From positions 1 to 41,718 of IMG/VR virus record IMGVR_UViG_3300008450_000102: a stretch of 41,718 nt of DNA, one strand, 5' to 3'. The translations under genes were made by a program, and so were the position numbers. The notes beneath the pieces are model-generated. The model was not told where the DNA came from. It saw nothing but the letters and a program-made list of their open reading frames with translations, and ran no database searches. Below are positions 1 through 41,718 of the stretch, piece by piece. Each line of letters opens with the position of its first letter. Position 1 is the stretch's first letter. The stretch is from a virus.

Positions 1-37
1 GAACAAACGTAAATATAATTTGTCATGGAGCACGCTA

Positions 38-1161: not shown

Positions 1162-1162
1162 C

Positions 1163-1492: not shown

Positions 1493-1518
1493 TTTTTAAA
1501 GGCTTGGAGGGCTAAGAT

Positions 1519-2517: not shown

Positions 2518-2526
2518 GATTCTTAG

Positions 2527-4131
2527 ATGGCTAAAACATCTACTACAAAGATATACAACTTCTTTGACCAAAAAAAGGCACTGCAAGGCGGATTAAACGT
2601 AACAGATGATCCGCTGATTGTTGGCCCTAATGAGATGACTGTGGCAAAGAACGTGCTTATCGGTCAGTCTCTGGCTCGACAAAAAAGGCCAGGTCTTGAA
2701 AATTATCATACAGGAAACTTTGAAGGCACAGCTTCATATCCAGCGTCAGGTGTTCCGATTCGTGGAATCTTGCAATACTATCGCTACGGCTCTGGTACTG
2801 GAGAAGTCTATGAAGATATTTTCCTACATCAATCAGATAAAGTTTGGTCAATTGGCACTCGTACTTCTGAAGGCATCAATCAAACTGGAAGCCTAACACT
2901 CTCAACAACAGGAATTCCTAGCTATCAGGTGTTTGAGGGTATTTTGTATTTTGTTACCTCTGAGACTGCTGATGGCTATAATAAGTGGAACGGATTAGCT
3001 GAGCCGCCAGGCGTTGCTGAAGCTGCAACTGCGCCGCTTGATGGAGTTGGAAAGCTTCTTGGCAACTATTTTGGCCGCATGCTTATGGCTGGTAATCCCG
3101 ACTTTCCTTTCAGGGTTTACATGTCAGCAGCGTTAGACGCTGAAGACTGGTCAGGCATGGATGCAACATCGTTTGATTTGACGTATGACGGCGATCCAAC
3201 TGGAGTTACTGCAATATTTCCAGAATTAGATGGCAGAGTATTTATTGCAACTCGTAGGAGTATTTATGAGTTATCAACTACTGATCCAGCTAATCTTAAT
3301 AACTTCTCTATTCGCCGTGTTACTCGCGGAATCGGCTGTGTAGGGCAAGGAACAGTAGTAGCAACTCCTAACGATGTCTTGTTTGCCTCAGATCGCGGTA
3401 TTCACTCAATCAAGAAAGTTGTAGTTTCAGATCAGTCTGAGATCTCATTCTTAAGCCGAGATATTCAGAATCTGTGGGTTAGTCTTCTTAATGCACAGCG
3501 CCTCAATCAAGCGCAGGCTACTTGGGAAGAAACGCAAAACTTATACGTTATTACAGTGCCAGTTGCAGGTGAATTAACTAACAGTACCGTTCTTTGTTAC
3601 AATTTGACGTTCGGCTATTGGACACTGTGGGAAGATGTTGATGCTAGAAGCTTAAACACCGTTTTAATATCTAATCGTCAGTATATTTTAGCAGGAAGAG
3701 AAGATGGCAAAGTAGCCTTCTTTAATCCATCTGAAACAACTGATTTTGGCACAGGTTATTCATTTATCATGAAGACAGGAAAATTCTTCCCTGATTCAAT
3801 GATGACAAATCAGTTTAGATTCACAGCTGTTACAATTATGGTTTCAGCAACTCAGCCTTCAACTATTTCACTCGGTTGGTTTGTTGACTCTGTAAACGGC
3901 ACAAGAACTGGATCAAGAGCCCAGAATATCGGAGCTGATTCTGATGCATTGGGGTCTACATTCGTTCTTGGCTCAAGTCGTCTAGGCATTGGATCTTTTG
4001 TGCCTGTTAGGTTTTCAATCGAAGAAACTGGGTATAACATTCAGTTGCAAGTTACAGCTGGCGGAACGTCAGATATTAAATTTTTAGGCTACATTTTGGA
4101 GGTAGAAGATGCCGACCCTGTTTACACGTAA
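2527..4131 (+). CDS. Tail nozzle, beta-propeller type (tail tubular B / gp10-like)
   Basis: The N-terminus has the hallmark opening of phage nozzle proteins: QGGLNVTDDPLIVGPNEM, followed by RQKRPGLENYHTG, which matches the usual 'GGLN..d.p....p.e...a.N......lrkRpG' pattern. The rest is beta-rich with repeated blades, for example RVFIATRRSIYELS, NDVLFASDRGIHSI and REDGKVAFFNP. It should form the lower tail tube beneath the adaptor. The length (534 aa) is in the range for this class. AGGA precedes the ATG, and the 3' end overlaps the next gene by 23 bases. Confidence 0.8.
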   Translation: MAKTSTTKIYNFFDQKKALQGGLNVTDDPLIVGPNEMTVAKNVLIGQSLARQKRPGLENYHTGNFEGTASYPASGVPIRGILQYYRYGSGTGEVYEDIFLHQSDKVWSIGTRTSEGINQTGSLTLSTTGIPSYQVFEGILYFVTSETADGYNKWNGLAEPPGVAEAATAPLDGVGKLLGNYFGRMLMAGNPDFPFRVYMSAALDAEDWSGMDATSFDLTYDGDPTGVTAIFPELDGRVFIATRRSIYELSTTDPANLNNFSIRRVTRGIGCVGQGTVVATPNDVLFASDRGIHSIKKVVVSDQSEISFLSRDIQNLWVSLLNAQRLNQAQATWEETQNLYVITVPVAGELTNSTVLCYNLTFGYWTLWEDVDARSLNTVLISNRQYILAGREDGKVAFFNPSETTDFGTGYSFIMKTGKFFPDSMMTNQFRFTAVTIMVSATQPSTISLGWFVDSVNGTRTGSRAQNIGADSDALGSTFVLGSSRLGIGSFVPVRFSIEETGYNIQLQVTAGGTSDIKFLGYILEVEDADPVYT

Positions 4132-5053
4132 AATTATTTCATTAGGACTTGTACTCTCATTTGGTGTACAAGCTGCAACTGTTTCAAGAGTAACAAGCTT
4201 TTCTGATGGAGAAGTCTTGTTTGCTGCTGATCTTGAATCAGAATTTAACAACCTCGTTGATAACATCAACTCTCTTGATAACGATAACCTAGCATCAGGA
4301 GCTAACATTTCTCCAAGCAAGATATCTGCAACGATTGCAGGAGATGGCATTGCTCGTAACGGTGCAACTGGAATTTTAGAAGTTAACGACGATAACTCGA
4401 CTCTTGAAATTTCAGGTGACGTACTTCAAGTTAAAGATGACGGCATCACAGTTTCCAAGATTGCAGAGCAAGCAGCGTTATCTGTGCTTGGTAACGGCAC
4501 TAATGCTACTGCAAACGTGACAGCATTAACAGCTGCAACTGACGGCCATGTACTTCGCCGTAGCGGTACAGCTGTTGCGTTTGGAACTGTTGCAACAGAT
4601 GGAATCGCAGATGGAGCTGTAACGCAGGCTAAGAGGGCTGCTTTAGGTCAGCAAATTAGCTCTTCTGGCAGCGGTGTGTTTACGACGACAAGCACAAGCG
4701 CTGTTGATGTAACAAATTTATCAGTAACAATCACAACTACAGGTAGGCCTGTTTATATTGGGCTAATACATGATAGCTCAATTTCTTCTCTTAGCTATAT
4801 TGGATGTAGTGATCTTGATAATGGCTGTCAGAGTGAAGTAAAGATTCTTAGAGATGCAACTTTAATTAGTAATTCGTTTCTTTGGAGTCAGAGTGTTGGC
4901 TCGTCTACAAGCTTTCACATGGTTCCAACCTCTTCCGTAAATCATATAGATACTCCAGCGGCAGGAACGTACACTTATAAAATACAAACTCTAGCAGGCT
5001 CTGGCGACACTGCTCATGTTATTTACGCTAAACTCGTAGCCTACGAGCTTTAA
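4109..5053 (+). CDS. Tail-fibre-like protein with N-terminal Sec signal peptide
   Basis: Residues 1-22 form a good signal peptide (basic start, hydrophobic core ISLGLVLSFG, cleavage after VQA). The next stretch is a classic phage tail-fibre N-terminal module (RVTSFSDGEVLFAADLESEF, then NNLVDNINSLDNDN), followed by SGANISPSKIS, a Gly/Thr-rich beta shaft and a C-terminal beta domain (about 190-314) with two Cys. GGAGG precedes the ATG, which lies inside the nozzle gene. The export signal on a fibre is unusual, because virion fibres are normally cytoplasmic before assembly. It may be an exported adhesin or a fibre with a membrane step. Confidence 0.75.
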   Translation: MPTLFTRKIISLGLVLSFGVQAATVSRVTSFSDGEVLFAADLESEFNNLVDNINSLDNDNLASGANISPSKISATIAGDGIARNGATGILEVNDDNSTLEISGDVLQVKDDGITVSKIAEQAALSVLGNGTNATANVTALTAATDGHVLRRSGTAVAFGTVATDGIADGAVTQAKRAALGQQISSSGSGVFTTTSTSAVDVTNLSVTITTTGRPVYIGLIHDSSISSLSYIGCSDLDNGCQSEVKILRDATLISNSFLWSQSVGSSTSFHMVPTSSVNHIDTPAAGTYTYKIQTLAGSGDTAHVIYAKLVAYEL

Positions 5054-5055
5054 TC

Positions 5056-5863: not shown

Positions 5864-5872
5864 GAGGATTTC

Positions 5873-6790: not shown

Positions 6791-6800
6791 GGAGAATTTT

Positions 6801-7958: not shown

Positions 7959-7970
7959 GGAGTCTAACTA

Positions 7971-9959
7971 ATGGCTGATGAGAATGATCCGTTTGCAGGA
8001 ATAAACTTGGTTGATGAGTCAGCTAAACCAGCTGTTAGAACGACTCCTTTAACGATGGAGGAGCGTCTTATTGTGCAGAATCTTTTTGATACTCAGCCAG
8101 AAAGACGCAAGGCCTACATGGAGCAAATTGGCTTTGAGCTTGATCCTAATGATACAAATAAATATAGACCTCTTGGCTCACAGTTAGAGTTTCAAGCTGA
8201 GATTGATCCTGGCACTAGCATTTTGTTTGCTCCTGGCGGACTGAAGGAAAAGTTTTTTGCTATTGCTGAAGAAACTGGGAAAGATGCTGCTGATCTTATT
8301 GGTGATCTTGCATCTAGTGTTATATCTACAGCTGGACAGGCAGCAGGAGCTGCTTTTGGCCGAGGCGCAGGTAGCGCAGCATCTCCTACTGGAATGATTG
8401 TTGGCGGTATTATTGGCGGCATTACTGGAGGCGCTCTAGGCCAGCAAGCAGCAGAAGAAGCTAAGACGTCTATTGGTGATTTGTATCTAGATAAGAACAT
8501 TCCGCCTGACAGAAAGATTCAAGCAGTACAGGCTTTAATTGCAGGAGTTGCTCCTGTCATGATTCAAAAAGGCGCTAAAGTCGCAAAGCAGGGCTTCCAA
8601 GGCCTCTTGTCAACAAGAGCTAATGCTATTGCTAATGCTGCTAAGTCTGCTGGCGGCGGTGTCACAGATGAGCTTTTAGCTAAGGCTTCTAATAATCCTG
8701 AGATGTTCACGAAAGAAGCTGTTGAAGGTGCAACTGAGCGTTTAGGTAAAACGTATAAAGACATCTTTGGAATTGCTGACGATAAAGCTATTACGCCAAA
8801 ATCCACTCGTGCTATTGCTCCTGATTCGCTGTTTGGCAAAGCTGTAGCTCCACTAAACAAAGAAGCTACTGAAGAAGTATCTAAACTTTCTAAAATGCCA
8901 GAAGCTAACTGGAAAGCGTCCGATCTTCTTGGGCCTATTAATAGGCAAATTGAAGCATTGTCAGATGTATTTGAGCCTACTGTAGATCAAAAGGCTGCAT
9001 TGCTGTATCTGAAAGATAAAAAGAAAACTATTGAAAACAAAGCAAGCGAGGTTTTAGCAAGCAAGATTCCTAGTAAATCAGCAGCTAAAATTGCAGAGGA
9101 AGAGGCTCAATTAGCACTAACTCCTGGCGCCACTGCTGCAATGAAGAAAGCTCCAAAGCCTCAGCCTATTAAATTTACTGAAGATCAGTTAATGAATGCT
9201 GAATTTAATTTTAAACAAGGCCGAGAGTTTTTAAAAACTTTGCAAGATGATGCATTTGACCGTGAAGTTGCAGGCTCAGGCTACTTAAGACAATACGCTG
9301 GCGGTCTAAGACAACTAGCTGACCAAAAAGCAGGCGCTCTTGGTTCAAAACTTCCTGAGATCAACGCTAAACGCGCTCAGATCCTAGGGCTCTTTGATCA
9401 AGCTAAATCAACAGTAACGCCTCAAAAGCTCACATCAGCATTTATCGGTGATGACACGATTGCAAAACAGGACACTCAGCTTGTTCTTAAAGCCATGGAA
9501 GATATGGGCATTGCTCCTGGTATTAGTCAGTCAGTTGAATCTGGAGCTATGCAGCGTGTACTTGAAAATGCCTACAAGAATCCTAAAGCTTTTGGATCAG
9601 GCCGTGTTCAAGGCGCTATGATTTCAGAGGGTATATCTGGCGGCGTTAAAGGCGCTCTTGGAGGCGGAGCTGTAGGCTCTGTAGTTGGCGCTCCTGGTAC
9701 TGGAGCTTTAATTGGCGGCGTTACAGGGGCTGTTAGAGGCGTTAAACAAGGCGCTATGATGGCAAGACCTGAAGTAGCTATTCCTGCTCTTGCTGAAAAT
9801 ATAGCTAAACAGAGAGCTTTAGAGGCGGCTATAAACAAGCCTCTTAGCCAGCAGGTATCAGTACCTGTGCAGCAAGCAGGACAGACTCTAATGCGAAATA
9901 CGCTAGCACCTGAAACAGTGCCTGAGGATAATGATCCGTTTAAAGATATTGAGTTTTAA
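7971..9959 (+). CDS. Internal virion / DNA-ejection-type protein 3, 662 aa
   Basis: AAGGAG precedes the ATG. This is the largest of the three ejection-type proteins. Two glycine-zipper membrane-active segments are clear: about residues 130-165 (GGIIGGITGGALGQQAA) and about 560-600 (GGAVGSVVGAPGTGALIGG). Between them are long charged helices. The first residues contain NDPFAGI and the last contain NDPFKDIEF, so a short acidic motif occurs at both ends. Glycine zippers in the largest internal protein fit a membrane-spanning ejection role. No lytic transglycosylase motif was seen. The gene ends the plus-strand late module. Confidence 0.65.
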   Translation: MADENDPFAGINLVDESAKPAVRTTPLTMEERLIVQNLFDTQPERRKAYMEQIGFELDPNDTNKYRPLGSQLEFQAEIDPGTSILFAPGGLKEKFFAIAEETGKDAADLIGDLASSVISTAGQAAGAAFGRGAGSAASPTGMIVGGIIGGITGGALGQQAAEEAKTSIGDLYLDKNIPPDRKIQAVQALIAGVAPVMIQKGAKVAKQGFQGLLSTRANAIANAAKSAGGGVTDELLAKASNNPEMFTKEAVEGATERLGKTYKDIFGIADDKAITPKSTRAIAPDSLFGKAVAPLNKEATEEVSKLSKMPEANWKASDLLGPINRQIEALSDVFEPTVDQKAALLYLKDKKKTIENKASEVLASKIPSKSAAKIAEEEAQLALTPGATAAMKKAPKPQPIKFTEDQLMNAEFNFKQGREFLKTLQDDAFDREVAGSGYLRQYAGGLRQLADQKAGALGSKLPEINAKRAQILGLFDQAKSTVTPQKLTSAFIGDDTIAKQDTQLVLKAMEDMGIAPGISQSVESGAMQRVLENAYKNPKAFGSGRVQGAMISEGISGGVKGALGGGAVGSVVGAPGTGALIGGVTGAVRGVKQGAMMARPEVAIPALAENIAKQRALEAAINKPLSQQVSVPVQQAGQTLMRNTLAPETVPEDNDPFKDIEF

Positions 9960-12078: not shown

Positions 12079-12927
12079 TTAGAACTCCTCACCTCGTTTA
12101 ATCATTTCAAGTGGAGAAGACTTGTACCATGTAGGTAGGTCGATCTCCGAAACTTCAGTCGTCAATCCAGGCCAGGTGTTGCTCTGTTTTGCTTTCTGAA
12201 ATTTGTTAAGTAGAACTTTATACTCATGTCTGCCGATGTCAATGAGGTTTGGTGCAGCTTTATAAACACAAGACAAATACGGTGCTTCAGTTTCAACTGT
12301 TGCCCAATAAAATTCTTTAACTTCAACTTCTCCTTGCGATGCGTTAACAAGTCCATCGATGTAATACGCAACTTGTCTTTGATATGCATAATCTGTCACT
12401 GAGTTTGGAAACTTCACTGCATTAGCTGTCGTCTTAACGTCAAGAATAAATGCATCTTTGACATAAGCATCAGTGCGGCCTTTGCACAGAGCTTGAGTAT
12501 CAGGATCAGTCCAAAACATTGATGACTCAACTTTCCAAGACTTCTCTGCTTCTTTAACAAACGGATGAGATAACAGTGAATCTCCTGCAAATCTCACTCT
12601 ATCGTATGTTTCTTGATTGATAAATTTAATGCCTAGCTGCTCTGATTGAAGAGCCTCAGATGCTGCTTGCTCTTTGCCTTTTACTGTCCTTCGATCTGAG
12701 ATGCTTGATACTTTGTATTCTTTGATCCAGTTTTCTGGCTCAAGCACATAAGTATGAATCATGATTCCGATTTCTTGAGACTTAGAAGGCGGTCTTCTAT
12801 TGCCTAAGATATATTCCCACTCATACTTTTTTGGCGCCTGAGCAAACACGTTTAGCTCTGATACCGAAATGTGATCTATTATTGCCCTGTATTCATTATT
12901 TTCTATTTCGTATATTCCTGTTTTCAT
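12079..12927 (-). CDS. RecE-like exodeoxyribonuclease VIII
   Basis: The 282-aa protein carries the nuclease core of the RecE C-terminal/DUF3799 family: a His in GIMIHTYVLEP (His58), RTDAY (Asp153), ILDVKTT (Asp163-x-Lys165) and the Tyr/Gln-rich helix AYQRQVAYYIDG (about 181-192). It would degrade the 5' strand of double-stranded DNA ends to give 3' tails for annealing or recombination. It heads a minus-strand run with the SSB-like protein and the resolvase-like nuclease. No ribosome site is evident before the ATG, and only 40 bases separate it from the divergent glycosyltransferase gene. Confidence 0.85.
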   Translation of the reverse strand: MKTGIYEIENNEYRAIIDHISVSELNVFAQAPKKYEWEYILGNRRPPSKSQEIGIMIHTYVLEPENWIKEYKVSSISDRRTVKGKEQAASEALQSEQLGIKFINQETYDRVRFAGDSLLSHPFVKEAEKSWKVESSMFWTDPDTQALCKGRTDAYVKDAFILDVKTTANAVKFPNSVTDYAYQRQVAYYIDGLVNASQGEVEVKEFYWATVETEAPYLSCVYKAAPNLIDIGRHEYKVLLNKFQKAKQSNTWPGLTTEVSEIDLPTWYKSSPLEMIKRGEEF

Positions 12928-12967
12928 TTTTGTTGGTTTAAAAGCAAAACTTGATTAAGTAAAGCTG

Positions 12968-13792
12968 ATGCGCAAAAGATTACTAATCGCAATTCCTAAC
13001 TACATGAAAGAAGATAAAGATGTCAGAATGCTGCTTCGCTGCATTAGCTCGATAAGACTGCACGAGCCGCTGATGATCTTTCATGTTGTAGTCTTTGACG
13101 ATGCATCTCCATACTTCACTGAAACTGCAATGTACGAAATTCTTTCAACTGGTACGAAGATTATTCGCAGTGATGAAAACGGCGGATATTCAAAAACTGT
13201 AAACAAAGCATTCCACTATGCAAGAGAAAATAAATACGACTTTGTTTTAACTCTAAATTCTGACTGCGAGATTCTAACTTCTTTCTACAGAAGAATCGTG
13301 CAGCTATTTAATTATGATCCAAAGATTGCGGTCATTGGCGGCTTATGTCTTTATCCAAGCGGCAGAATTCAATCAGCTGGAATTCAGCCAGATATTAAAG
13401 GCGTACCTCACCAACCAGGTAGAAACTCACACTATGTTCTAGATAATTCTCATGGAGCAAATCAGTCTAAATACGTCTGGGGAGTTACTGGAGCATTCCA
13501 GTTTATTGATATCAAAGCCTGCTTTAATATCGGCCTATATTCTGAAAACTATAAGATGAGCTATGAAGACGTGGAATTTTGTCAGCGTGTTTGGATGTCA
13601 GGCTATAGATGCTTTTATGACAGCCTAATTGCTACAAATCACTGTGAATCAGTGTCTAGAGGATATCATCTAGGGAAGAATGAGCTTGAGAGCCTTGAGC
13701 AGTGGCACCAAGACTTCTCTGAAGCAAAGCATCGACTGGTAAATGATCTCGTAGCTTCTGCAAATTCTGAAAGCCAAAATCAATCGTCTTAA
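12968..13792 (+). CDS. GT-A (GT2 family) glycosyltransferase
   Basis: The motifs are in the right order: IAIPNY at the start, VVFDDASP (43-48), [14 protein letters not shown] (68-81), TLNSDCEI with the metal-binding NSD (about 97-99), [10 protein letters not shown], then [17 protein letters not shown] and a late NHCES. This is the layout of rhamnosyl/GT2-type enzymes. The gene is a lone plus-strand gene among minus-strand ones, like a moron gene, and has no strong ribosome site. Its last 137 bases overlap the convergent gene 13656-14216. Confidence 0.85.
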
Positions 13793-14216
13793 TGCATTTT
13801 TGCACCATGATAAGGCCAAGTAAAACTTGCTGGCCTTTGTAGGTGATTTCTTTAATTTGATCTATTGGTGTTGTTGCATCTTGAATCAAAGTTACATCTT
13901 CAAGAAGATGAAATACATAAGCTTTGGTGTCTTGGCTCTGGGCTTTGAGCTTTTGGAGTTTGATGAGATCGCAGCCTATGAATTTAGTATTCTTTAAATC
14001 TCGCTGAGTATGATGCTTGAGTTCAACAAGCTTGGGAATTGAATTTGGCTTTAGTAAATCAATAAGCCAGTAATCAAACGTATTAAAGTCTTGATGACAT
14101 CTAACAAGCTTATGCGTCTTTGAATACTTGGCGTTAAACTTCTCTAAAAACAAGCTTTCAGTTAACGATTCTTTAGATATTGGTTTAGTGATTACTTGTG
14201 GTCTGTCGTTAAACAT
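13656..14216 (-). CDS. PD-(D/E)XK nuclease-like protein, 186 aa
   Basis: The central part has FDYWLIDLL (Asp near 48-49) followed by [10 protein letters not shown] (Glu65-x-Lys67), the spacing of a PD-(D/E)XK core. [16 protein letters not shown] comes next, a helix common after the core in phage nucleases of this fold, and then [11 protein letters not shown]. The C-terminal 45 residues are Gln/Ser-rich and are encoded antisense to the end of the glycosyltransferase gene, so they may be an extension. It begins two bases after the lipoprotein gene stop. The nuclease call comes from the motif pattern only. Confidence 0.55.
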
Positions 14217-14218
14217 TT

Positions 14219-14536
14219 TTACTTCTTAGGACGTCCTAGCTTTTTAAGCCAGCTTTCAATGTACTTATTTTCTGCTGCTTTGAATTCGATGATTCTGCGA
14301 GAGCAGTATGAAAAAACTGCTTCATATTCAGTCTCGCCGTTTGAACATCTATCAGGATTTGGAAACTGTTTACAGCTAACAACACGATATATGCCTAGGC
14401 TTTTAAGCTCTGGTACGTTTTGGCAAACAGATGCTGGAAGCTGATCGAATTGCCACAATTGGCCCTCGACTTCTTGACGACTGACGCAAGAAGCTAGCAT
14501 CAAGATGCATGAAATTTTAATGATATTCATTTTCAT
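14219..14536 (-). CDS. Lipoprotein, possible outer-membrane spanin subunit, 105 aa
   Basis: The N-terminus MKMNIIKISCILMLASC is a type II signal with lipobox LASC (Cys17), with Val-Ser after it. The mature part has four further Cys (VCQN, SCKQ, RCSN, YCSR), which suggests disulfides in the periplasm, and a basic C-terminus (KKLGRPKK). It overlaps the gene before it by four bases (ATGA) and is third in a minus-strand set of small membrane-type genes. This is reminiscent of a holin/spanin cassette, although the mature part is longer and more Cys-rich than a typical Rz1. Confidence 0.65.
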   Translation of the reverse strand: MKMNIIKISCILMLASCVSRQEVEGQLWQFDQLPASVCQNVPELKSLGIYRVVSCKQFPNPDRCSNGETEYEAVFSYCSRRIIEFKAAENKYIESWLKKLGRPKK

Positions 14537-15335: not shown

Positions 15336-15728
15336 TCAGTCTCTTGGCATTTGTTTTTCTACTGTAGAAATTTCATAGTCGTCATCAATAGCCAGAAGAC
15401 TGTCTTCTAGAATTATCGATACTTGCACATCTCCATCAACGCTCTGCACAAACTCTTTCAGACGACTAAATTCAGGTCTATCTTTCAAGTCATCCCAGAT
15501 GCTTAAATCTGTTGGATCAAGCTGAAAGCTATCATCAATCCAGCCGTGAGAGCCCATCGGATGCTGCTCCTTACAGAGTTGTCCACAGGCTACAACCCAT
15601 ACTTCTTCTGCACGATTGTAGGCTGATCTTCTAGCGTTGCCTTTAAATAATATTGAGCCTTCTAGCCTTCGACGCACAGGCACTGAGAAAACAATGATTC
15701 GGTTCATTAGAGGTTTATAGTTTTTCAT
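15336..15728 (-). CDS. GroES-like co-chaperonin candidate, 130 aa
   Basis: The start NYKPLMNRIIVFSV matches the GroES opening 'i.PL.drViV', followed by a likely mobile-loop segment (RRRLEGSILFKG) and a strand AEEVWVVACGQ that parallels 'rGeVvAVG.G'. The C-terminal part has VDGDVQVSIILED and ends LLAIDDDYEIS, close to the 'evlimsEsDilAi' end of GroES but rearranged. Phages such as T4 (gp31) encode GroES analogues that let GroEL fold the capsid protein. The mobile loop lacks a clean GGI(V/L) tripeptide, so this is a moderate call. It is divergent from the HNH gene, with only 12 bases between. Confidence 0.5.
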   Translation of the reverse strand: MKNYKPLMNRIIVFSVPVRRRLEGSILFKGNARRSAYNRAEEVWVVACGQLCKEQHPMGSHGWIDDSFQLDPTDLSIWDDLKDRPEFSRLKEFVQSVDGDVQVSIILEDSLLAIDDDYEISTVEKQMPRD

Positions 15729-15740
15729 GCGATTCTCAAT

Positions 15741-16205
15741 ATGATGCAGAAACCTAAAACGTCAAGAAGTAAAGAAGCTGAGAATTGGTATCAGAATATT
15801 GAAAAGAAATCAGAAGCTTTAGGAATCTGCTTTCACAAAGCAAGAAGAAAGCTAGTTAACATGTTAGTCAAAAAAGCATTTGAGCATGAAGACGGCAATG
15901 TCTACTGCGTCAGATGTGGTGAAATTATTGATTCAGAATTTCACATCGATCATATTGATGCTTGGCTCTTCTCAACTAATCCACAAGAAAAATATTTCGA
16001 TCTATCAAACATTGGCCTATCGCATCCTATCTGCAACAGTCTATCGCGCCGAAATCATAGAACCTATACACAAGAAGAAGCAGCTATACGCAGCGCAGTG
16101 AAGCATCGTCTTTATCAACGTCGTGGTTATCTCAAGAGAAAAAATCAGTTGCATAAGGAGAATCCTCATGTCAAAGATGCCAAAAGCAAAAAGAAAAATT
16201 CTTAA
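15741..16205 (+). CDS. HNH endonuclease
   Basis: A zinc pair CVRCG (Cys56, Cys59) is followed by HIDHIDAW (catalytic His region 68-71), LSNIGLSHPICN (Asn90, His95, Cys98) and a basic tail. This is the beta-beta-alpha metal fold of HNH nucleases with a structural zinc. It may be a free-standing homing or recombination nuclease next to the replication genes. The ATG has no clear ribosome site. The 3' end overlaps the replication gene by 38 bases. Confidence 0.8.
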   Translation: MMQKPKTSRSKEAENWYQNIEKKSEALGICFHKARRKLVNMLVKKAFEHEDGNVYCVRCGEIIDSEFHIDHIDAWLFSTNPQEKYFDLSNIGLSHPICNSLSRRNHRTYTQEEAAIRSAVKHRLYQRRGYLKRKNQLHKENPHVKDAKSKKKNS

Positions 16206-16689
16206 AGCTTTCACAGGGGGATTTGTGAAATTCAAAATCGGCTACATTCCGAGGGACGAATCGTTCATCGTTTTCACTGGCAATCAAATCATCGAGAAAG
16301 ATTTATCTGAAGATGCTGCTACCAGGCTTGCTCAGTTTCTTAATTGCCAAGAATATTTGAATACAGATCAAAAGGCTCGTGCAGTCAGAGCACAGCCGTT
16401 ACCTGATTTTGATTTCGATAGAATTTATGAACTATATCCAAGACGTATCGGAAAAAAAACTGGCATCGAACGACTCAAGAAAACTATTACGACAATCGAA
16501 AAGTATGAGCTACTAGAATCAGCTGTTAGGCATTATGCTTCTGAGATGCAGAATACAGAGGAAAAATTCATCAAGCATTTTAGTAGCTGGGTTTCGTGTT
16601 GGCATGATTGGATTCCAGAAGGCGTAACTACAAGCAGTAAAGAATCTCAGCTATCTCTAGATGACATTACAAATATGATGAATCAGTAA
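16168..16689 (+). CDS. Replication initiator / helicase-loader-like protein, 173 aa
   Basis: I chose the ATG at 16168 because AAGGAG lies seven bases upstream; a longer frame from 16123 is less likely. The C-terminal half has FDRIYELYPRRIGKKTG, then a helix-rich block and KHFSSWVSCWHDW. The pattern 'YP+..GK..a...' followed by 'yi.hf.tfl....W' is typical of the C-terminal domain of phage replisome-organiser (O/DnaD-like) proteins. It overlaps the helicase gene by one base (TAATG), which supports a loader/helicase pair that draws on the host replisome. Confidence 0.7.
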   Translation: MSKMPKAKRKILKAFTGGFVKFKIGYIPRDESFIVFTGNQIIEKDLSEDAATRLAQFLNCQEYLNTDQKARAVRAQPLPDFDFDRIYELYPRRIGKKTGIERLKKTITTIEKYELLESAVRHYASEMQNTEEKFIKHFSSWVSCWHDWIPEGVTTSSKESQLSLDDITNMMNQ

Positions 16690-21784: not shown

Positions 21785-21959
21785 CTACTTCCTTGTCTAC
21801 TGGCTCCTTAAGCTCAAGGCCTGTGGCGCCTGTCAGCTCATTAAACGAGACTTTCACGATGTCAGAGATCTTGGCGTCTGGATACTTGCGCGCTAAGGCC
21901 ACGAGCCGAGAGAAAGTCCTACGATACATCTCTACTTGCTTGTTTACCGACAGAATCAT
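21750..21959 (-). CDS. Hypothetical protein, 69 aa
   Basis: The protein has a basic helical N-terminus (QVEMYRRTFSRLVALARKYPDAK) and an acidic tail (DKEVDETEIKANMDV). It overlaps the upstream lipoprotein gene by ATGA and the downstream HNH-like gene by 35 bases, which supports a real, coupled gene. No family was recognised. Confidence 0.5.
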   Translation of the reverse strand: MILSVNKQVEMYRRTFSRLVALARKYPDAKISDIVKVSFNELTGATGLELKEPVDKEVDETEIKANMDV

Positions 21960-22210
21960 TTGACTGCCTGCTTCTTGGGCGCCTTGGCTTTTTGAGCCTT
22001 GGCATCACGAGCCTTCTGCATCTTGAGTTTAATCTTCTCGACATCAGTTAAGCAGTATTGTCCTTTGCTTGATTGAGGCTTGAGCACTGTGAAGCAGAGT
22101 TTTTCTTTTTCTGATTCTTTGAGCTTTTGAATCACGCCGTCTAGCATCGAGGGCTTTGAAGCACAGGCGCTAAGAAGCATGAGTAGGGGCATACTTGTTT
22201 TTAGATTCAT
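21956..22210 (-). CDS. Lipoprotein with charged helical body, 84 aa
   Basis: AAGGAG precedes the ATG. The signal MNLKTSMPLLMLLSAC ends in lipobox LSAC (Cys16), followed by Ala-Ser. The mature part is a charged helix (MLDGVIQKLKESEKEKLC) and a Lys/Ala-rich C-terminus (KARDAKAQKAKAPKKQAVK) that could bind peptidoglycan or nucleic acid. Two Cys remain in the mature part. This is the fourth lipoprotein gene in the window. An outer-membrane spanin or exclusion factor is possible. Confidence 0.65.
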   Translation of the reverse strand: MNLKTSMPLLMLLSACASKPSMLDGVIQKLKESEKEKLCFTVLKPQSSKGQYCLTDVEKIKLKMQKARDAKAQKAKAPKKQAVK

Positions 22211-23590: not shown

Positions 23591-24301
23591 CTAGTCTACT
23601 AGGCTTTTAATCTTTTGGCGTAATGCTGTCATACTCATGGATAAAGAGCCGCCTGGATCGTTCTTGCGTCCGTATGGTACTGCCACTTCGTGATGCCCGA
23701 CTACGTTTTCAATCTTAAACACGTCTGGATTGTTTTTATGTAGCCAGACAAGTAGAGAGATGAGTGATGTCTCTTGAGCTGTGGTGTACTTGTGGAAGTA
23801 GCCAGTAGGGTCAAGCGCATCTCGTTTTTCTTTGATATGTCTGACTTGCTCTGGTTCATAAATCTCACCGAACCATGAAACGTATTTATCTTTGAGCGGC
23901 TTCACAGATCCAGCGTTGCAGATCTCAATTCCAACAAGCTTGCTTGATACAGAGCTGCCTAGGTCTTTCCAATTAGAAGTACCTGCATGATAACCCCAAT
24001 CAGAGAGTGGAAAATTCTGATACACAAGTCCATCTTTATCGATAACAAAGAACATGTATCCGTTTTTGATACCGCCTTCGACTGTGTTCTTTGCGTTCTT
24101 AGCTCCAAGTAGTGAACGGCCAGCAGTGAAATGAACTACTGCTCCCTCTGGATAGCCTTTTGCGTACTTGCCACGAGACTTCATTGGAGCGATTTTAGCT
24201 TCCATAGCCGGATACCAGAGCAGCTTTTTAGGCTCGTCTACATTGGGACGTTCACCGTCTTGTTTGCTGAATAAACTTTTTAACCAATTCATAAATTTCA
24301 T
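23591..24301 (-). CDS. N-acetylmuramoyl-L-alanine amidase (Amidase_2/PGRP fold), endolysin
   Basis: The 236-aa protein has the zinc and catalytic residues of the T7-lysozyme family: His57 in AVVHFTAG, His203 in VGHHEVAVPYG, and Lys213-x-Asp215 in RKNDPGG, where many relatives have K-x-C/D. WGYHAGTSNW and KLVGIEICNAG match the core strands. It would cut the bond between MurNAc and L-Ala. There is no clear signal peptide, so a holin or similar is needed for access. The start overlaps the upstream gene as TAATG. Confidence 0.85.
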   Translation of the reverse strand: MKFMNWLKSLFSKQDGERPNVDEPKKLLWYPAMEAKIAPMKSRGKYAKGYPEGAVVHFTAGRSLLGAKNAKNTVEGGIKNGYMFFVIDKDGLVYQNFPLSDWGYHAGTSNWKDLGSSVSSKLVGIEICNAGSVKPLKDKYVSWFGEIYEPEQVRHIKEKRDALDPTGYFHKYTTAQETSLISLLVWLHKNNPDVFKIENVVGHHEVAVPYGRKNDPGGSLSMSMTALRQKIKSLVD

Positions 24302-28447: not shown

Positions 28448-28780
28448 CTAGACAGGTTTCATTCTTCTTTTGACAAGTCTTTCCAGATAGCAGGATTCAA
28501 GTAAAGAAATTTCTTCATACGAGATTGATTTCTTTTTGTCGTTAGTGCCGACACGTTTAGCAGGCATGCCTTGATACACTGTCCACTCAGTTAACACGTC
28601 TTTTTTCTTGACGTGAGTGAATGATTCAATAATCGCTCCTGGCGGAATAATGCAGCCATCATCTATCTTCACAAATTCTTTTATTTCAGCATGCGCGAAT
28701 ATGTAGACATCTTTGCCGATAGAAACAAATTGACTTGCAACTTGTGCGTCTAGTTCTTGAGTGTACGTTTCATTAGCCAA
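28448..28780 (-). CDS. Left-handed beta-helix (hexapeptide) acyltransferase-like protein, 110 aa
   Basis: Hexapeptide turns are visible (SIGKDVYIFAHAEI, VKIDDGCIIPPGAIIES) and the coil ends in VYQGMPAKRVG, the standard 'v.G.PAk.iG' close of LbetaH acetyltransferases. At 110 aa it has only a few coils, so it is short for an active trimeric enzyme and may be a minimal or partial form. It overlaps the formyltransferase gene by 31 bases, which suggests a shared amino-sugar substrate. Confidence 0.65.
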   Translation of the reverse strand: MANETYTQELDAQVASQFVSIGKDVYIFAHAEIKEFVKIDDGCIIPPGAIIESFTHVKKKDVLTEWTVYQGMPAKRVGTNDKKKSISYEEISLLESCYLERLVKRRMKPV

Positions 28781-29457
28781 GATGGAAATTTGGCTAATAC
28801 TTCCTTGTCGTATCTGTCACCTAGTTTTTTTGAATACTCAGCATGCAGTGTAAATTCTGGCGCAAGAAGCCCGTGCTCTAGACCAAATAACGCCTCTATC
28901 ATGCCATCTAGTTCAACTGTTTGATGACGCAGAAAGACTGAGTGAATTGTGTCAGTTGGATAGAGCGGCACGATTTTAGTGAACAGTAATTTTCCTGCAT
29001 CAATTTTACTATCGATTAGGTGAAATGAGACTGCTGGATCTATATCCCATAAAATTGCTTTTTTTAAATTATCAAGACCTCTGTTAATTGGCAGAAGACC
29101 TGGATGCATGTTGAGGATGCCATGAGGCAAAGCGTCTATGGTCTTTTGCTTTAGGATTCTAGCGCCCAGGATGACGCCAAAATCGCAATTATGTTTTTTG
29201 ATGGCTTCTATTGCAGTTTCCGAATCATGATCTGCGATAATGTAGGTTATTTGCAGGTATCCAAGTAGCTTTTGCCAGTTAGAGAGTGACTGCGCTTGTT
29301 TGGGCGAAACTCCAATTGAGTCAGGATTAGGCTCTAGCTCTTTGGCTGGCTGAGCTATGACGATTTTTGGATGATAGCCACTGGTTATGAGTTTCAATAA
29401 TCCGTTTTGGCATTTAGCATGGTCAAAAGCATACGTGAAAACGCAGAGATTTTTCAT
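28750..29457 (-). CDS. Formyltransferase-family protein (sugar N-formyltransferase-like)
   Basis: The 235-aa protein contains the catalytic block GILNMHPGLLPINRG with Asn and His of the Asn-His-Asp triad, and HLIDSKIDAGKLL with the Asp. The preceding strand GVILGARILKQKTID is also typical. The length fits a stand-alone N-formyltransferase rather than Met-tRNA formyltransferase, which carries a C-terminal domain. It would transfer formyl from N10-formyl-tetrahydrofolate to an amino sugar. I chose the ATG at 29457 over a GTG at 29466; no strong ribosome site is seen. Confidence 0.75.
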   Translation of the reverse strand: MKNLCVFTYAFDHAKCQNGLLKLITSGYHPKIVIAQPAKELEPNPDSIGVSPKQAQSLSNWQKLLGYLQITYIIADHDSETAIEAIKKHNCDFGVILGARILKQKTIDALPHGILNMHPGLLPINRGLDNLKKAILWDIDPAVSFHLIDSKIDAGKLLFTKIVPLYPTDTIHSVFLRHQTVELDGMIEALFGLEHGLLAPEFTLHAEYSKKLGDRYDKEVLAKFPSWLMKRTLKN

Positions 29458-29513
29458 GCAAGACACGTTACACTTAAAATCAGGTTAACCAAATATTTGA
29501 AGGAGATAAATTT

Positions 29514-31380: not shown

Positions 31381-31986
31381 ATGTCTAAAGAAGACGTGAA
31401 ATCAAAGCTCGACAAGCTTGCCGACGAGTTTGGTGAACCTAAAGAGCCCAAAAGGCCTATAGCTCAAGATCCTCTGCGCCCAGTCAAAGAGTATGAAGAG
31501 CGCAGATATCAACCTGGCCGCAAGATGAAAGCATCTTGGATCGATGCCAAGCATCAAGAAGAAAAAATGATTGAGGCGATTGATGATCTAAGAGCTATGA
31601 AGCGTCTGGCTCCTACTGTCATGAAGCTTCTGAAAAAGAAGATACCGCTAGATCAAGCCATCAAGGAAACAAGTAGCGAAACATTCTTGATGCTCATGAA
31701 GATGGCATTCACTGAAGGCAATCCTAAAGTCAAATCAAACGTCTTGATGCATATGCTTTCGCTTGCTGGATATTCTGCAACACAGAAGCATCAAATTGAG
31801 CGCATTGATCCAGACTCACCGCGCGAAGCTCTATTGTCTATGATCGCTGGCGCTAAAGATGACTTGAGTAAAGAAGGCATTGAAGTCGTGGATAATAGAA
31901 ATCTAGATGACTCTAACTCAGAGCCTACTGACGTTATTGAAGACGATGATGATGAAGACATAGATGATGTAGGCTATGAAACTTGA
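31381..31986 (+). CDS. Probable terminase small subunit
   Basis: Directly upstream of the large terminase gene and overlapping it by 11 bases. The 201-aa protein has a charged N-terminus, a helical middle (LRAMKRLAPTVMKLLKKKI, then ETFLMLMKMAFTEGNPKVKS) that resembles helical repeat or HTH segments of small terminases, and a strongly acidic tail (DVIEDDDDEDIDDVG). It would recognise the packaging site and load the motor. The call is mainly from position. Confidence 0.6.
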   Translation: MSKEDVKSKLDKLADEFGEPKEPKRPIAQDPLRPVKEYEERRYQPGRKMKASWIDAKHQEEKMIEAIDDLRAMKRLAPTVMKLLKKKIPLDQAIKETSSETFLMLMKMAFTEGNPKVKSNVLMHMLSLAGYSATQKHQIERIDPDSPREALLSMIAGAKDDLSKEGIEVVDNRNLDDSNSEPTDVIEDDDDEDIDDVGYET

Positions 31987-33991
31987 TCTTTCGGATATTG
32001 AAAATAAGTCACAGGAAGAATTAGTTGCAATCGCACAGCAGGTTATGCTGCTGAAGAAAGCTAGAAGATCTAAGCGTCTTGAAGACTATTCAAACACGAT
32101 GCATGAAGGCCAGCTTGCATTTCACAAGAATCGCAAGCGCATTAGATACGTGTGGGCTGGCAACAGATGTCTTCGTGAATCAACTAAAATCTGGACGTCT
32201 GATGGCTTGCAGGAAATTGGCAGCATCAAAGAAAACAGCTGCTTTATTTCGCTGGATACTGAGCGCAATACTTTTGATTACTCGTTTGGCGGAGTGCCGT
32301 TTAAAAAAGGCAAAGATAACCTGTATCGAGTAGTTCACGAGCATGGTGAATTTTATTCATCACTAGCTCACAGAATTTACTGTGAAGACGGTGAGTATCA
32401 TTCAATCGGTGAAATGATTGATGGAGAAAAACTTAAAGCAAGATTTCTAGACGTTAAATCTCCAACTCAATTCAATGCAAACGAGTTAGCGTTTTCACAG
32501 ATACTTGCAATCGAAAAGCAATCAAAGCCTGAGTGGTATTGGGATCTTCCTATTATCGACACTAATAACTATTTAGACGAATCAGGCATTGTTCACAGTA
32601 ATTCAGGCAAAACAACTGCTGGCGCTGTAGAACATATCTGGCGAGCAACAGGCACTCACCCATATTACAAAGGCACGGTACCTATCAAAACAGCAGTAGT
32701 TGGCCCTGACTTTGAAAACTGGGGAAAATCTGTATTTGAGCCAAAGATAAATGAGTGGACTGCGCCACAGATGATCAGAAAGATTGATCGACATCAAAAC
32801 GGCGCGATTAAACGAATCTTCTGGACGTGTGGATCGACTACTGACGTGTTTTCTTGGGATCAAGATCCTATGGTATTTGAAGGCTCAGACTATGATTTAG
32901 TCTGGTTTGATGAGCCGCCTCCTGAAAAGATTTACAAAGCTCTATGGCGCTCGTGTGTTGATCGCGGCGGTACAATGTATATGACAGGCACGCCTCTTAT
33001 GTCGCCTTGGATGTATAAAGTCTATCAGCAGATCAAAGACAATAATGATCCAATTCGCTGGTACATAAAATTCAATTCCAAAGTAAATGCAAAGAATATA
33101 GGCGGAGGCGATGAGAAGCTGGGACTAAAGCGCCTTGAAGAGCTTGCATCTGAGTACACAGAAGAAGAAAAAGCAGCTCGTATTGACGGCGATTTCGTAC
33201 AGCTTCAAGGCCTCATCTTCAAGAATTGGGATCGCGATAAGCATTACATCAATGCGTTTCCTATTCCGCATCATTGGCCTATTTATGAATCAATCGATCC
33301 GCATCCAAATAAGCCGTGGGCTGTAACCTGGACTGCTATTGCGCCAAATAATTCAAAGATTCTTGTGCAGAGCATGTACTGTGAAGGCGTTATTGATGAG
33401 ATTGCAAATCAGATAATCTATGCGCGTGGCAGGATTGAAATTAAAGATAATCTCAAGCCTAAGATTGTTAGAACGCTAATAGATAACGCGTCATCTGTAC
33501 CTCTATGGCAAAAATCTCAGACTGATCCAACGGCAAGACGAATATCCGTTAGAGAAGAGCTTGAGAATATGATTGGGCCAAGAGGCGCAGGTGGGCCTAG
33601 AGTTGAAGTATGTCCTAAGAATGTGCAGCATAAAATTGAGATTTTAAAGCAGTGGCTGCATATAAAAGACCGAAACGGTGTCCAAAGACCAGATTTCTTT
33701 GTATTCTGTAACGGTCAAAACGAGGATTTTGTCGAAGAAATCGAAAACTACGTTTGGGATCGGTATAAAAGTCGTCATGATGCAGGACTAAAAGACAGGC
33801 CAGTCAAAAAGAATGATGATTTACTTGATTCAGTGATGCAGGTGGGTCTTGTGCTTGGTTCGCAAGTGCGCGAACATAGTGAAGATTCAGTTAGCCTGAT
33901 TGATGGCTTGTCTACTTATGGAGGAGATTCAACTAATGGCTCAAGACGATATTTCAAAGCGCGACAAGGCCCTATCAGCTGGCAAGATTGA
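31976..33991 (+). CDS. Terminase large subunit with in-frame mini-intein
   Basis: The reading frame of 671 aa contains an intein of 145 residues (65-209). Removing it joins AGNR to SGKTT and restores a terminase Walker A. Walker B is YDLVWFDE (306-313), motif III is TGTP (337-340), and the C-terminal nuclease domain starts near YESIDPHPNKPW (Asp441), with later acidic residues in LIDNASS and NDDLLDS. The spliced protein is 526 aa, a normal size. It would cut the concatemer and pump DNA through the portal. The start lies inside the small-terminase gene and has only a weak ribosome site. Confidence 0.9.
   Translation: MKLDLSDIENKSQEELVAIAQQVMLLKKARRSKRLEDYSNTMHEGQLAFHKNRKRIRYVWAGNRCLRESTKIWTSDGLQEIGSIKENSCFISLDTERNTFDYSFGGVPFKKGKDNLYRVVHEHGEFYSSLAHRIYCEDGEYHSIGEMIDGEKLKARFLDVKSPTQFNANELAFSQILAIEKQSKPEWYWDLPIIDTNNYLDESGIVHSNSGKTTAGAVEHIWRATGTHPYYKGTVPIKTAVVGPDFENWGKSVFEPKINEWTAPQMIRKIDRHQNGAIKRIFWTCGSTTDVFSWDQDPMVFEGSDYDLVWFDEPPPEKIYKALWRSCVDRGGTMYMTGTPLMSPWMYKVYQQIKDNNDPIRWYIKFNSKVNAKNIGGGDEKLGLKRLEELASEYTEEEKAARIDGDFVQLQGLIFKNWDRDKHYINAFPIPHHWPIYESIDPHPNKPWAVTWTAIAPNNSKILVQSMYCEGVIDEIANQIIYARGRIEIKDNLKPKIVRTLIDNASSVPLWQKSQTDPTARRISVREELENMIGPRGAGGPRVEVCPKNVQHKIEILKQWLHIKDRNGVQRPDFFVFCNGQNEDFVEEIENYVWDRYKSRHDAGLKDRPVKKNDDLLDSVMQVGLVLGSQVREHSEDSVSLIDGLSTYGGDSTNGSRRYFKARQGPISWQD
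32168..32602 (+). other. Mini-intein inserted in the terminase Walker A
   Basis: The first residue is Cys65. Block A reads CLRESTKIWTSDG; block B lies around HGEFYSSLAHRIYC, with Ser129-x-x-His132 in the TxxH position; block F is WYWDLPIIDTNNYL; the end is GIVHSN with terminal Asn209 and Ser210 as the +1 residue. The linker between blocks B and F is only about 50 residues, so there is no homing-endonuclease domain. The penultimate residue is Ser, with His shifted one place, unlike the usual His-Asn. Splicing is inferred from the intact motifs and the exact host motif. Confidence 0.88.
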
Positions 33992-38417: not shown

Positions 38418-39347
38418 ATGTCTATTGCACTTCGTAGTAATTATAGTGATTTAGTTCTTGAAGACGCGCTTCCAGCATTGGAGTTCATCGCTGAAGATGA
38501 ATTTCAGTCGTTTGAGCCACGTTACGAGAAGATCTTTAACGTAAAAGATATGCGCACTGCTATCGCGCAATCTACTCAAGTTTCTAGCCTTCAGCCTGCA
38601 GGCAGCGTTGGCGAAGCTGAGCAGATTCCGCTCCAACGCGTTTACCAAGGTTACGATAAGACCTATACCGCTGTTAAATACGGTATCATGATGGCTTCTA
38701 GCCAAGAGCTTATCGATGACTTGGAATACGACGTTATGGCTGCGAATCCTCGCAAGCTCACACGCGCATTCATGAGCACTGTTGAGATCACCTCTGCTAA
38801 CGTGTTTAACACTGGTTTCTCGGCTCTTGGTCCTGACGGCAAAGCTCTCTTTGCACAAGATCACCCTCTTCTTGCTCCTGGCGGCGGAACTGCTTCCAAC
38901 ACGCTCGCAACTCCTGCTGACTTGGCTGCTACGTCTGTTAAAAACATGATCACGCTGCTTCGTTCGCAAGTTGACACTGCTGGAAACAAAATCATGATCA
39001 ACCCACGTCAACTCCTCGTAGCTCCTGCTAACGAGTTCTTGGCGTATGAGATCTTGAAGTCAGTTATGCTTCCTGATTCTGCTAACGCATCTGTTAACTC
39101 GATTAACAGCATCGGATCGCAGTACAAGATTGATCCTATCGTCTGGGATTACTTGACCGATGAAGACGCATTCTTCCTTCTTGGCGACAAGATGGATCAC
39201 ATGGCGTGCTTCTACTGGCGCAAGCGTCCTGAGCTTTCAACTGATATGGATTTCAAAACTGAAGTTGCTCTCACGAAACTCGTGGGTCGATTTGCAGTTG
39301 GATACAGCGACTGGCGCGGTATCGTCGGAACTGAAGGCAACGGCTAA
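38418..39347 (+). CDS. Major capsid protein (HK97 fold)
   Basis: The 309-aa protein has an N-terminal arm, a spine helix region (IPLQRVYQGYDKTYTAVKYG, then GIMMASSQELIDDLEYD), a P-loop-like segment (PDGKALFAQDHPLL) and a C-terminal A-domain (KIMINPRQLLVAPANEF and YWRKRPELSTDMDFKTEV). The 'alf..dHp' block is common in Mu-type gpT-like capsid proteins. It is last in the head module, followed by a strong terminator, as for a highly expressed gene. GGGGAGG precedes the ATG. Confidence 0.85.
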   Translation: MSIALRSNYSDLVLEDALPALEFIAEDEFQSFEPRYEKIFNVKDMRTAIAQSTQVSSLQPAGSVGEAEQIPLQRVYQGYDKTYTAVKYGIMMASSQELIDDLEYDVMAANPRKLTRAFMSTVEITSANVFNTGFSALGPDGKALFAQDHPLLAPGGGTASNTLATPADLAATSVKNMITLLRSQVDTAGNKIMINPRQLLVAPANEFLAYEILKSVMLPDSANASVNSINSIGSQYKIDPIVWDYLTDEDAFFLLGDKMDHMACFYWRKRPELSTDMDFKTEVALTKLVGRFAVGYSDWRGIVGTEGNG

Positions 39348-39415: not shown

Positions 39416-41080
39416 ATGAAGAAAAAGATATTGATCGCTCTATCAATGCTTGCAGGCATTGCGTTTGCTGCAAGTAGTTTTACAACGCATTATAATTTAG
39501 AAAAATCTGCTGACGGTGATACTAACTGGGGGTCAGCTTATAGATCAAACATGGATACGATTGACACGCAGATCTATTCTGCAAGTCAAACGGTTGATAA
39601 TCACATTGCAGACACGACTGATGCGCATGATGCATCTGCGATTTCTGCAACATCTGGAAGCTTAGTATGCTTAACTGAAGACAACGTGCAAGATTATCTT
39701 GACTGTCTTGATGGACAGTTAGGAGCTGTAACTGGCGGAACTGTAGTTACGACAAACACGGTGCAGACAATTACAGCAAGCAAGACGTTTAGCGCTCTTC
39801 AGACGTTTACTAACGGACTGACGTTAACTGGCGGCACGCTGACACTACCGTTTTCAACAGGGCTTCTTCATTCAGACGGCTCTGGCGTTATTACGTCAAG
39901 TCTTTTAGTCAACGCTGATGTAGATGCAGCAGCAGGAATCACGTATTCAAAGCTTAGTTTAACTGACGGTATTGTAAATGCTGACGTAAATTCAGCAGCA
40001 GCTATTGCGTATTCTAAGCTTAATCTGTCATCTAGCATCACGTCTTCTGACATAACTAACGGAACAATCGTAAATGATGACATTAGTGCATCAGCTGCAA
40101 TTGTAGATACAAAGCTTGCAACTATTTCGACGTCTGGGAAAGTATCAAACTCTGCAACAACTGCAACTGCTTCAAATACTGCATCAGCTATTGTTGCTCG
40201 TGACTCAGACGGAAACACAACAGCAACAAACTTTATTTCAGCAACAACAGCTAACACTGCAAGTGGAACTATTACACTCACTAAATCTTCTTCGAGAATA
40301 CAGGTTTTTTCAGGCGGAGGAGGCGGTTTTGATGTAGTTCTTCCTGATGCAACTACTCTTAGAAACGGATCTACTTATGAGTTAAATCATAACGGATCAG
40401 GCGTTATGACTGTTAAATATAACGATGGGTCTACTCTGAATACTTTTGGAGCAGGGTCTGATGTTAGAATAATTTTAACTAGTAACTCTACATCTAACGG
40501 CGTATGGGATCAGCATTCTTGGATTCCTAGCACAAGTAAACATGACTCTTCAGGATTAGCTGTAACTGGAGTTATATCTGCAAGCTCAACTATTGGAGTC
40601 ATTGAAACAGGCGGCGGAACAGATCAAGTTAAATTTGCAGGCCCAGCGTCCACAACTGGCTACACGATTACGCTGCCAGGATCGGCACCGACTGCAAACA
40701 CAGCTCTTGCGTATGACGGATCAAATTATGTTTGGTCGTCTGCTGGCGGCTGGACGACTTATGCAAACGAAAACATTTCAGCTAGTGGCTCAGTTACAAC
40801 AAGCACGACGGTAGGGCAGCAAGTTAGACGCGTTACTGGAAATGCTGCGGCTGTGACGCTATCTACAACGCCTTTTGGCGCTGTAGGCGGTTGGTCTGAC
40901 GGCTTGGTAGTTCGTCTTATCGGTCAATCATCAACAAACACTGTGACAGTAGTTCATAACGATGCAGCCAAAGGCGCAATCCTAAACGGTGACTGTGTGC
41001 TCGGTCAGTATGACGTGATTGAGCTTCAATACGACTCAACTGCTGACCGCTGGATTGAAATTGCAAGGAGTATTAAATAA
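39416..41080 (+). CDS. Tail-fibre-like protein with N-terminal Sec signal peptide, 554 aa
   Basis: Residues 1-18 are a signal peptide (MKKKILIALSMLAGIAFA, cleavage before ASS). They are followed by the common tail-fibre opening FTTHYNLEKSADGDTNWGSA. The shaft holds repeats of about 25-28 residues with 'VNADVxxAAxIxYSKL' (about 164-235), then Ser/Thr-rich beta segments and a C-terminal domain near SGSVTTSTTVGQQVRR. The protein is Thr/Ala/Ser-rich, as expected for trimeric beta-helical fibres. It is the second of three such exported fibre-like genes, and overlaps the next by one base (TAATG). Confidence 0.75.
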   Translation: MKKKILIALSMLAGIAFAASSFTTHYNLEKSADGDTNWGSAYRSNMDTIDTQIYSASQTVDNHIADTTDAHDASAISATSGSLVCLTEDNVQDYLDCLDGQLGAVTGGTVVTTNTVQTITASKTFSALQTFTNGLTLTGGTLTLPFSTGLLHSDGSGVITSSLLVNADVDAAAGITYSKLSLTDGIVNADVNSAAAIAYSKLNLSSSITSSDITNGTIVNDDISASAAIVDTKLATISTSGKVSNSATTATASNTASAIVARDSDGNTTATNFISATTANTASGTITLTKSSSRIQVFSGGGGGFDVVLPDATTLRNGSTYELNHNGSGVMTVKYNDGSTLNTFGAGSDVRIILTSNSTSNGVWDQHSWIPSTSKHDSSGLAVTGVISASSTIGVIETGGGTDQVKFAGPASTTGYTITLPGSAPTANTALAYDGSNYVWSSAGGWTTYANENISASGSVTTSTTVGQQVRRVTGNAAAVTLSTTPFGAVGGWSDGLVVRLIGQSSTNTVTVVHNDAAKGAILNGDCVLGQYDVIELQYDSTADRWIEIARSIK

Positions 41081-41718
41081 TGAAAAAGCTAATTGGCCTT
41101 TTACTTTTAGCCACAGTGGCTCAGGCCGCCACTATTTCTTCTAACTATGACCAAATGTTTCTTAACGCTAATGCTGAGAGAAACTATTTGCTCAATTCTG
41201 GAGCTGAGAAAAATGATGCAAACGTCACTGACTCAAGCTCGATTCATTCAAGAAGCACAAGCTCGCCTCTAATTGGCGTAGCTTCACATTTGATTGACGG
41301 CACTAACTCAAGTCAGAACGTAGACTTTGCAGCAAGTAACTTAGAGTCTGGCCTTCTTGGAACTCAGTGCGAGGCACTGTTTCTTGTTAACGGTGATGCT
41401 TCGTTATATACGGCAACGGTTCGTATCAACTCAGCCGACGTTACAACGGCGCAAACGCTGCCTAATACTGGCTCGTATTCACAGCCTGTTAGTATCGTGT
41501 TTCCATGTGGAACGTCTGGCGTTTCGCCTGTTCTTCGTATCACAAGCACGAGTGCATCTGCTGCTGCCATCAAGCTAGATAGTATTTATTTTGGCAAGGC
41601 TGTGAGTCTTGGGACGGTTAATCAGGTTGGGGATTGGCAGAGTTATACGCCTACTTTGGTTGGAAGCTCAAACGGTCTTGCTTGGTCAAACTCAACAACC
41701 ACGGGGCGTTGGAGGCAA
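41080..41718 (+). CDS. Tail-fibre-like protein with signal peptide, 3' part outside the window
   Basis: AAGGAG precedes the ATG. The signal peptide is MKKLIGLLLLATVAQA (cleavage before ATI). The mature part starts TISSNYDQMFLNANAERNY and continues into a beta-sandwich-like region with two Cys, then GDWQSYTPTLVGS, a module found in phage fibres and fibre-like surface proteins, usually followed by more sequence after 'WRR'. The frame is open at the window edge after 213 codons. If the window is circular it would stop three codons into the start, which looks too early for this domain. Confidence 0.7.
   Translation, partial: MKKLIGLLLLATVAQAATISSNYDQMFLNANAERNYLLNSGAEKNDANVTDSSSIHSRSTSSPLIGVASHLIDGTNSSQNVDFAASNLESGLLGTQCEALFLVNGDASLYTATVRINSADVTTAQTLPNTGSYSQPVSIVFPCGTSGVSPVLRITSTSASAAAIKLDSIYFGKAVSLGTVNQVGDWQSYTPTLVGSSNGLAWSNSTTTGRWRQ

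Follow-up and report, generated by a model that had tools for sequence, protein, structure and literature searches.

Tailed phages are assumed to produce and attach their fibres in the cytoplasm. A search of the open-access literature (subscription papers being mostly outside its scope) returned no paper on signal peptides of tailed-phage virion fibres or on an assembly route involving them, which is no proof of novelty; the proteins described here suggest that the trafficking of a phage tail fibre can include an unexpected step. Ordinary fibres of Caudoviricetes, of which those on contigs L031, L032, and L137 to L141 and the proteins UOF79079 and UOF78236 are the relevant examples, have the same N-terminal module or stalk motifs as the fibres F1 and F0 of this study and occupy the same place among the tail genes, but in them Met stands right before the module and the signal peptide (SP) is missing. 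The lambda protein Lom is exported and its gene lies among tail genes (PMC12309495); F0, F1, and F2 are like it in carrying a signal peptide on a protein encoded there; Lom is an outer-membrane beta barrel, whereas F0 and F1 are fibres with fibre anchors and F2 opens with a jelly roll. The MATs of Bdellovibrio are phage-fibre-like proteins composed of a signal peptide and then a beta-rich N-domain of ∼130 residues that is reported to have no PDB homologue (PMC10769870). The fibres studied here also join a signal peptide to a phage-fibre-like protein, but they lie in a phage structural cassette whereas MATs are encoded by the bacterium, and the mature parts of F1 and F0 open with short fibre modules, while the first domain of F2 looks like CBM4.

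The window, that is, the whole stretch of DNA analyzed, is IMG/VR record IMGVR_UViG_3300008450_000102 (41,718 bases, IMG/VR class linear, GC content of 42%). It encodes a large terminase, an SU10-type portal and adaptor, a major capsid protein (MCP), and a nozzle-type tail protein, and judging by the gene order of relatives, its structural cassette starts at 31,381, reaches the contig end, and resumes at 1 to 9,959. F0, F1, and F2 are its only tail-fibre candidates. F1 sits right after the MCP gene, the start codon of F2 overlaps the stop of F1, and F0 directly follows the nozzle-type gene, overlapping its end. As it stands in the window, F2 has 213 aa, which match the start of a 676-aa homologue on contig L044. 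When the two contig ends were joined, F2 ran into a stop after 3 codons and so gained no further sequence; the record is a linear piece with its break inside F2. The features are as follows (a slash marks the predicted cut).

38418..39347, + strand: major capsid protein (MCP), the clade-finding marker
39416-41080, + strand: F1
39416..39469, + strand: Sec signal peptide of F1, MKKKILIALSMLAGIAFA/A, score 5.11
39470..39643, + strand: N-terminal fibre module of F1, ASSFTTHYNLEKSADGDTNWG...DTIDTQ...HIADTTDAHDASAI, from alignment
39644..41080, + strand: stalk and tip of F1, from comparison with L044
39668..39706, + strand: Cys pair C85-x11-C97 of F1 in a VQ..LD helix motif, a spacing common to 7 of 8 F1 homologues
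41080-end, + strand: F2
41080..41127, + strand: Sec signal peptide of F2, MKKLIGLLLLATVAQA/A, score 5.01
41128..41718, + strand: mature N-terminal domain of F2, CBM4-like jelly roll (low-confidence model) with Cys pair C97/C143, open at the contig end
2527..4131, + strand: tail protein of the nozzle or "stabilization" type, upstream of F0
4109-5053, + strand: F0
4109..4174, + strand: Sec signal peptide of F0, MPTLFTRKIISLGLVLSFGVQA/A, score 4.93
4175..5053, + strand: mature F0 fibre, 292 aa with 2 Cys, its N-module and stalk homologous to SP-free genes

Signal peptides were called with a home-made Sec/SPase I script that asks for a positive n-region, a hydrophobic h-region, an AxA motif, and no second transmembrane segment. 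OmpA (5.08) and DsbA (4.88) were recovered, LacI and LacY were rejected, and PhoA was missed, so the script is conservative. Among all ORFs of the window, the clean Sec/SPase I substrates were F0 (VQA/A), F1 (AFA/A), and F2 (AQA/A) only. This agrees with the preliminary description, which had the ORFs and coordinates of the three proteins right and had placed their cleavage after VQA, AFA, and AQA, the same sites as those returned by the script. Apart from these, the script flagged a single ORF of the window, of 84 aa and with a lipobox. Small lipoprotein-like ORFs lie at 38-166 (+), 14219-14536 (-), and 21956-22210 (-), and, taken with an amidase gene at 23591-24301 (-), are a hint that the host is diderm.

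The signal peptides recur throughout the relatives of the window. Viral contigs scanned with the MCP fell into a close clade, with MCPs 60 to 85% identical (cutoff, at least 60%), and a wide family, with MCPs 30 to 40% identical. Wherever a contig of the close clade extends beyond the MCP gene, it encodes an SP-bearing F1 homologue (9 of 9 contigs), versus none of 33 control fibres from other phages that share the stalk or N-module of F1. The mature F1 module, used as query in an independent scan, gave nine contigs, all in this clade. Signal peptides are likewise present on the F0 homologues (3 of 3: the window, L050, and L051) and on the F2 homologues (3 of 3: the window, L044, and L049). The F1 homologue of L038 was missed by a version of the script requiring a Shine-Dalgarno word and passed a relaxed version; its signal is plain by sequence (MTKRILIALLLISGVAIA/ASSY). 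The relatives that carry SP-bearing fibres have genome GC contents of 42 to 52%. Across the loci of the MCP family, signal peptides were called in 39 of 423 genes downstream of the MCP gene versus 11 of 669 upstream of it (Fisher P = 1.5e-8), with 8 calls in 1,276 opposite-strand ORFs, and the placement of the signals is not due to chance.

We then compared the mature proteins with fibres from outside the clade. PHROGs and Pfam gave no family for F0, F1, or F2; the F1 module had a weak match to a PHROG tail fibre (E = 0.004), and a single-sequence AF2 model of F1 (pLDDT of 35) was too poor to use. Among the ORFs compared, the profile of the mature F1 N-terminus matched, outside the clade, SP-free fibres only, the hits being in L032 and L031 (E = 3e-11 to 6e-9), and in Pseudomonadota the F1 N-module was found in five places in 4 of 299 genomes, every time SP-free. 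In the SP-free relatives (L031, L032, and L137 to L141), only a few residues at most precede the module, and its start coincides with the predicted cut position of F1 (M/ADTYTANYNFTKPEPGTAGW versus AFA/ASSFTTHYNLEKSADGDTNW). When the F0 profile was run against 2,920 ORFs, its top match outside the clade was the SP-free protein UOF79079 of the circular phage MW202601, encoded by the third gene after the nozzle gene and matching the F0 N-module with an E value of 1.4e-5 in that genome; UOF78236 of the complete phage MW202524, an SP-free fibre encoded shortly after the nozzle gene, is 56% identical to the F0 stalk over 55 residues. F1 and F0 thus have the N-terminal anchor module common to virion-type fibres, and their profiles bear out the earlier claim that at least two of the three proteins continue as phage fibres. 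An anchor shared with virion-type fibres was not found for F2, which opens instead with a beta-rich domain. Fibres without a signal peptide are retained by MW202601 and MW202524, the closest complete relatives, and by two prophages of the wider capsid family in Pseudomonadota, so the virion design does not depend on export. By homology, the signal peptides appear to be additions to otherwise ordinary phage fibres. Comparison of F1 with its L044 homologue gave 80% identity in the tip and only 50% over the first 191 residues, so F1 is a mosaic whose tip and N-terminal part diverge unequally, as in receptor-binding fibres.

The cysteines of the mature proteins, which played no part in SP scoring, set the SP-bearing fibres apart. 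The C-x11-C pair in the VQ..LD helix motif is kept in 7 of 8 F1 homologues (in the window, F1 contains one more Cys, at position 527, that lacks a partner), C97 and C143 of F2 are invariant in 3 of 3, and the F0 homologues have two Cys each, at positions that do not align. SP-free fibre-like proteins overall have fewer Cys, less often paired: in the fetched loci, at least two Cys were present in 42 of 42 SP-bearing versus 49 of 106 SP-free fibre-like proteins (P = 1e-11) and an even number in 35 of 42 versus 30 of the 84 SP-free proteins having any Cys (P = 5e-7), figures that are approximate, as "fibre-like" denotes a composition filter, contig ends cut some of the proteins short, and the SP-free controls include some other virion proteins or miscalled starts. 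In MCP-family loci only, the corresponding P values were 3e-8 and 7e-4. Counted by sequence cluster, at least two Cys were found in 15 of 15 SP-bearing versus 20 of 35 SP-free clusters (P = 0.002), and an even number in 14 of 15 versus 12 of 31 (P = 0.0004). Such Cys pairing fits folding in an oxidizing compartment.

On these sequence grounds, we consider it very probable that the fibres are really exported and cleaved. We propose that F0, F1, and F2 serve a tailed phage as fibre-type proteins for receptor binding and have acquired Sec/SPase I signals. During infection, the precursors would be made, pass through SecYEG, and be cut at AxA; cleavage of F1 would restore the N-terminus that an ordinary fibre has after Met loss. 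The fibres would fold and form their disulfides in the periplasm, while capsids with their nozzle would be assembled in the cytoplasm. At lysis, fibres and particles would meet and the free N-terminal module would dock on the tail. Fibres and tailspikes of T4 and P22 can attach in vitro to finished particles, which makes attachment at lysis plausible. The preliminary description had listed adhesins, exclusion factors, and fibres with an envelope-linked assembly step; as a list of options it was right, and homology, gene order, and the match between cut and module start favour the last. Gene content is consistent with a presence of the fibres in virions: the near-full-length relatives G001 and G002 (38 and 42 kb) have no fibre-like genes other than F1 and F0, both with signal peptides, so no SP-free virion fibre was found there. 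As a whole, the proposal of virion-type fibres with an added export step, which undergo periplasmic oxidation and are attached to virions at lysis, has in our estimate an even chance of being right, and export combined with incorporation into virions is about equally balanced. The broader statement that a tailed-phage lineage matures its receptor-binding fibres outside the cytoplasm, by Sec translocation, periplasmic oxidation, and addition to particles only at lysis, we make tentatively, at slightly less than even probability.

An export signal and paired Cys throughout the clade would mean either periplasmic maturation and joining at lysis or free fibres outside the cell. The second reading, in which the SP-bearing proteins are exported and never enter the virion, coating the cell or being released as decoys or exclusion factors that block receptors, superinfection, or readsorption to debris, is one we hold with clearly less than even confidence. 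The evidence for export (signal calls, conservation, Cys, and the signal-like evolution described below) bears on it identically, Lom shows that a gene among the tail genes can code for an exported product (PMC12309495), and surface-acting proteins would suit both the CBM4-like fold of F2 and an SP-bearing polysaccharide deacetylase encoded in L101. L044 has an SP-free fibre-like gene (15695-16443, running to the end) in the cassette that also holds its SP-bearing F1 and F2, so receptor binding need not fall to SP-bearing fibres alone. Against this reading stand the two near-full-length relatives without any other fibre, the N-modules, which begin at the cut and by which ordinary virion-type fibres are anchored, and the position of F0 next to the nozzle gene, in a region whose fibres are SP-free in MW202601. 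With exported virion fibres, as with released ones, an SP already attached would offer bacteria a ready-made route to acquire secreted fibre adhesins.

Hydrophobic N-termini could in principle also mediate docking, and the segments might then be uncut virion-docking N-termini, or relics, that are not used as signals. We aligned eight F1 homologues at the cut: the n- and h-regions are 27% identical and the total SP length varies from 18 to 26 residues, versus 53% identity, free of gaps, over the 42 residues after the cut, with AxA present in 8 of 8 and a net charge of +2 or +3 in 8 of 8. From this pattern, the N-terminal segments of F1 evolve like signal peptides, which a docking helix is not expected to do: such a helix should conserve length and sequence, and both vary here while AxA, charge, and hydrophobicity stay. 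Homologous SP-free modules, moreover, manage without a hydrophobic segment, and Cys pairing fits an oxidizing compartment, so that we regard a docking or relic role as unlikely.

It is more unlikely still that the fibres are the phage counterpart or source of the Bdellovibrio MAT adhesins and that the host is a Bdellovibrio-like predator, a link raised in the preliminary description that we find unsupported: MATs are likewise phage-fibre-like with a signal peptide before a beta-rich domain (PMC10769870), an arrangement F2 shares, but F1 has no match among the PDB sequences of MAT structures and no sequence similarity to the solved MAT tips, the first domain of F2 resembles CBM4 folds whereas the MAT N-domain is reported to have no PDB homologue, the window has no S74 domain (which only 13 of 21 MATs have), and the capsid search matched no Bdellovibrio phage.

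When the model of the first F2 domain (pLDDT of 56) was compared with the PDB, CBM4 jelly rolls matched at E = about 6e-4 to 8e-4, but phage tail proteins and further beta sandwiches scored similarly, so that the likeness weakly suggests a fold class only. The domain had no match in 398 Pseudomonadota genomes, in a search run without a positive control. A capsid scan of bacterial genomes gave one match, of 30% identity, on an 8.7-kb contig in a Thioalkalivibrio MAG, and we therefore assign no host.

In the wide MCP family, many cassette proteins carry signals on sequences that are unrelated, and L101 has four in a row. If fibres do mature outside the cytoplasm, these signal-bearing cassette proteins of the more distant relatives point to use of such a route by several lineages. 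The SP-bearing gene of L101 that encodes the polysaccharide deacetylase (Pfam E = 4.5e-15) is a postcapsid cassette gene at 12700-13974. In distant lineages (L043, L058, L061, L066, L071, L072, and L090), Gln often stands directly after the cut, the residue in the window clade being A; the Gln may reflect a different host group.

Several other genes of the window were recorded. PADLOC returned no match. The large terminase (31976-33991) has an intein-like insert of ∼140 aa at its Walker A site (approximately 32168-32593, AGNR/C...HSN/SGKTT, slashes here marking the insert borders); the inserts at this site are larger in L038 and G001, and G002 has none. Downstream of F0 lies a pair of small related genes, GNAT-like by eye (5056-5481 and 5456-5863), that is also found in L050 and L051. 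A formyltransferase-like gene is located at 28750-29466, and a family-2 glycosyltransferase gene at 12968-13792 has homologues in G001 and G002.
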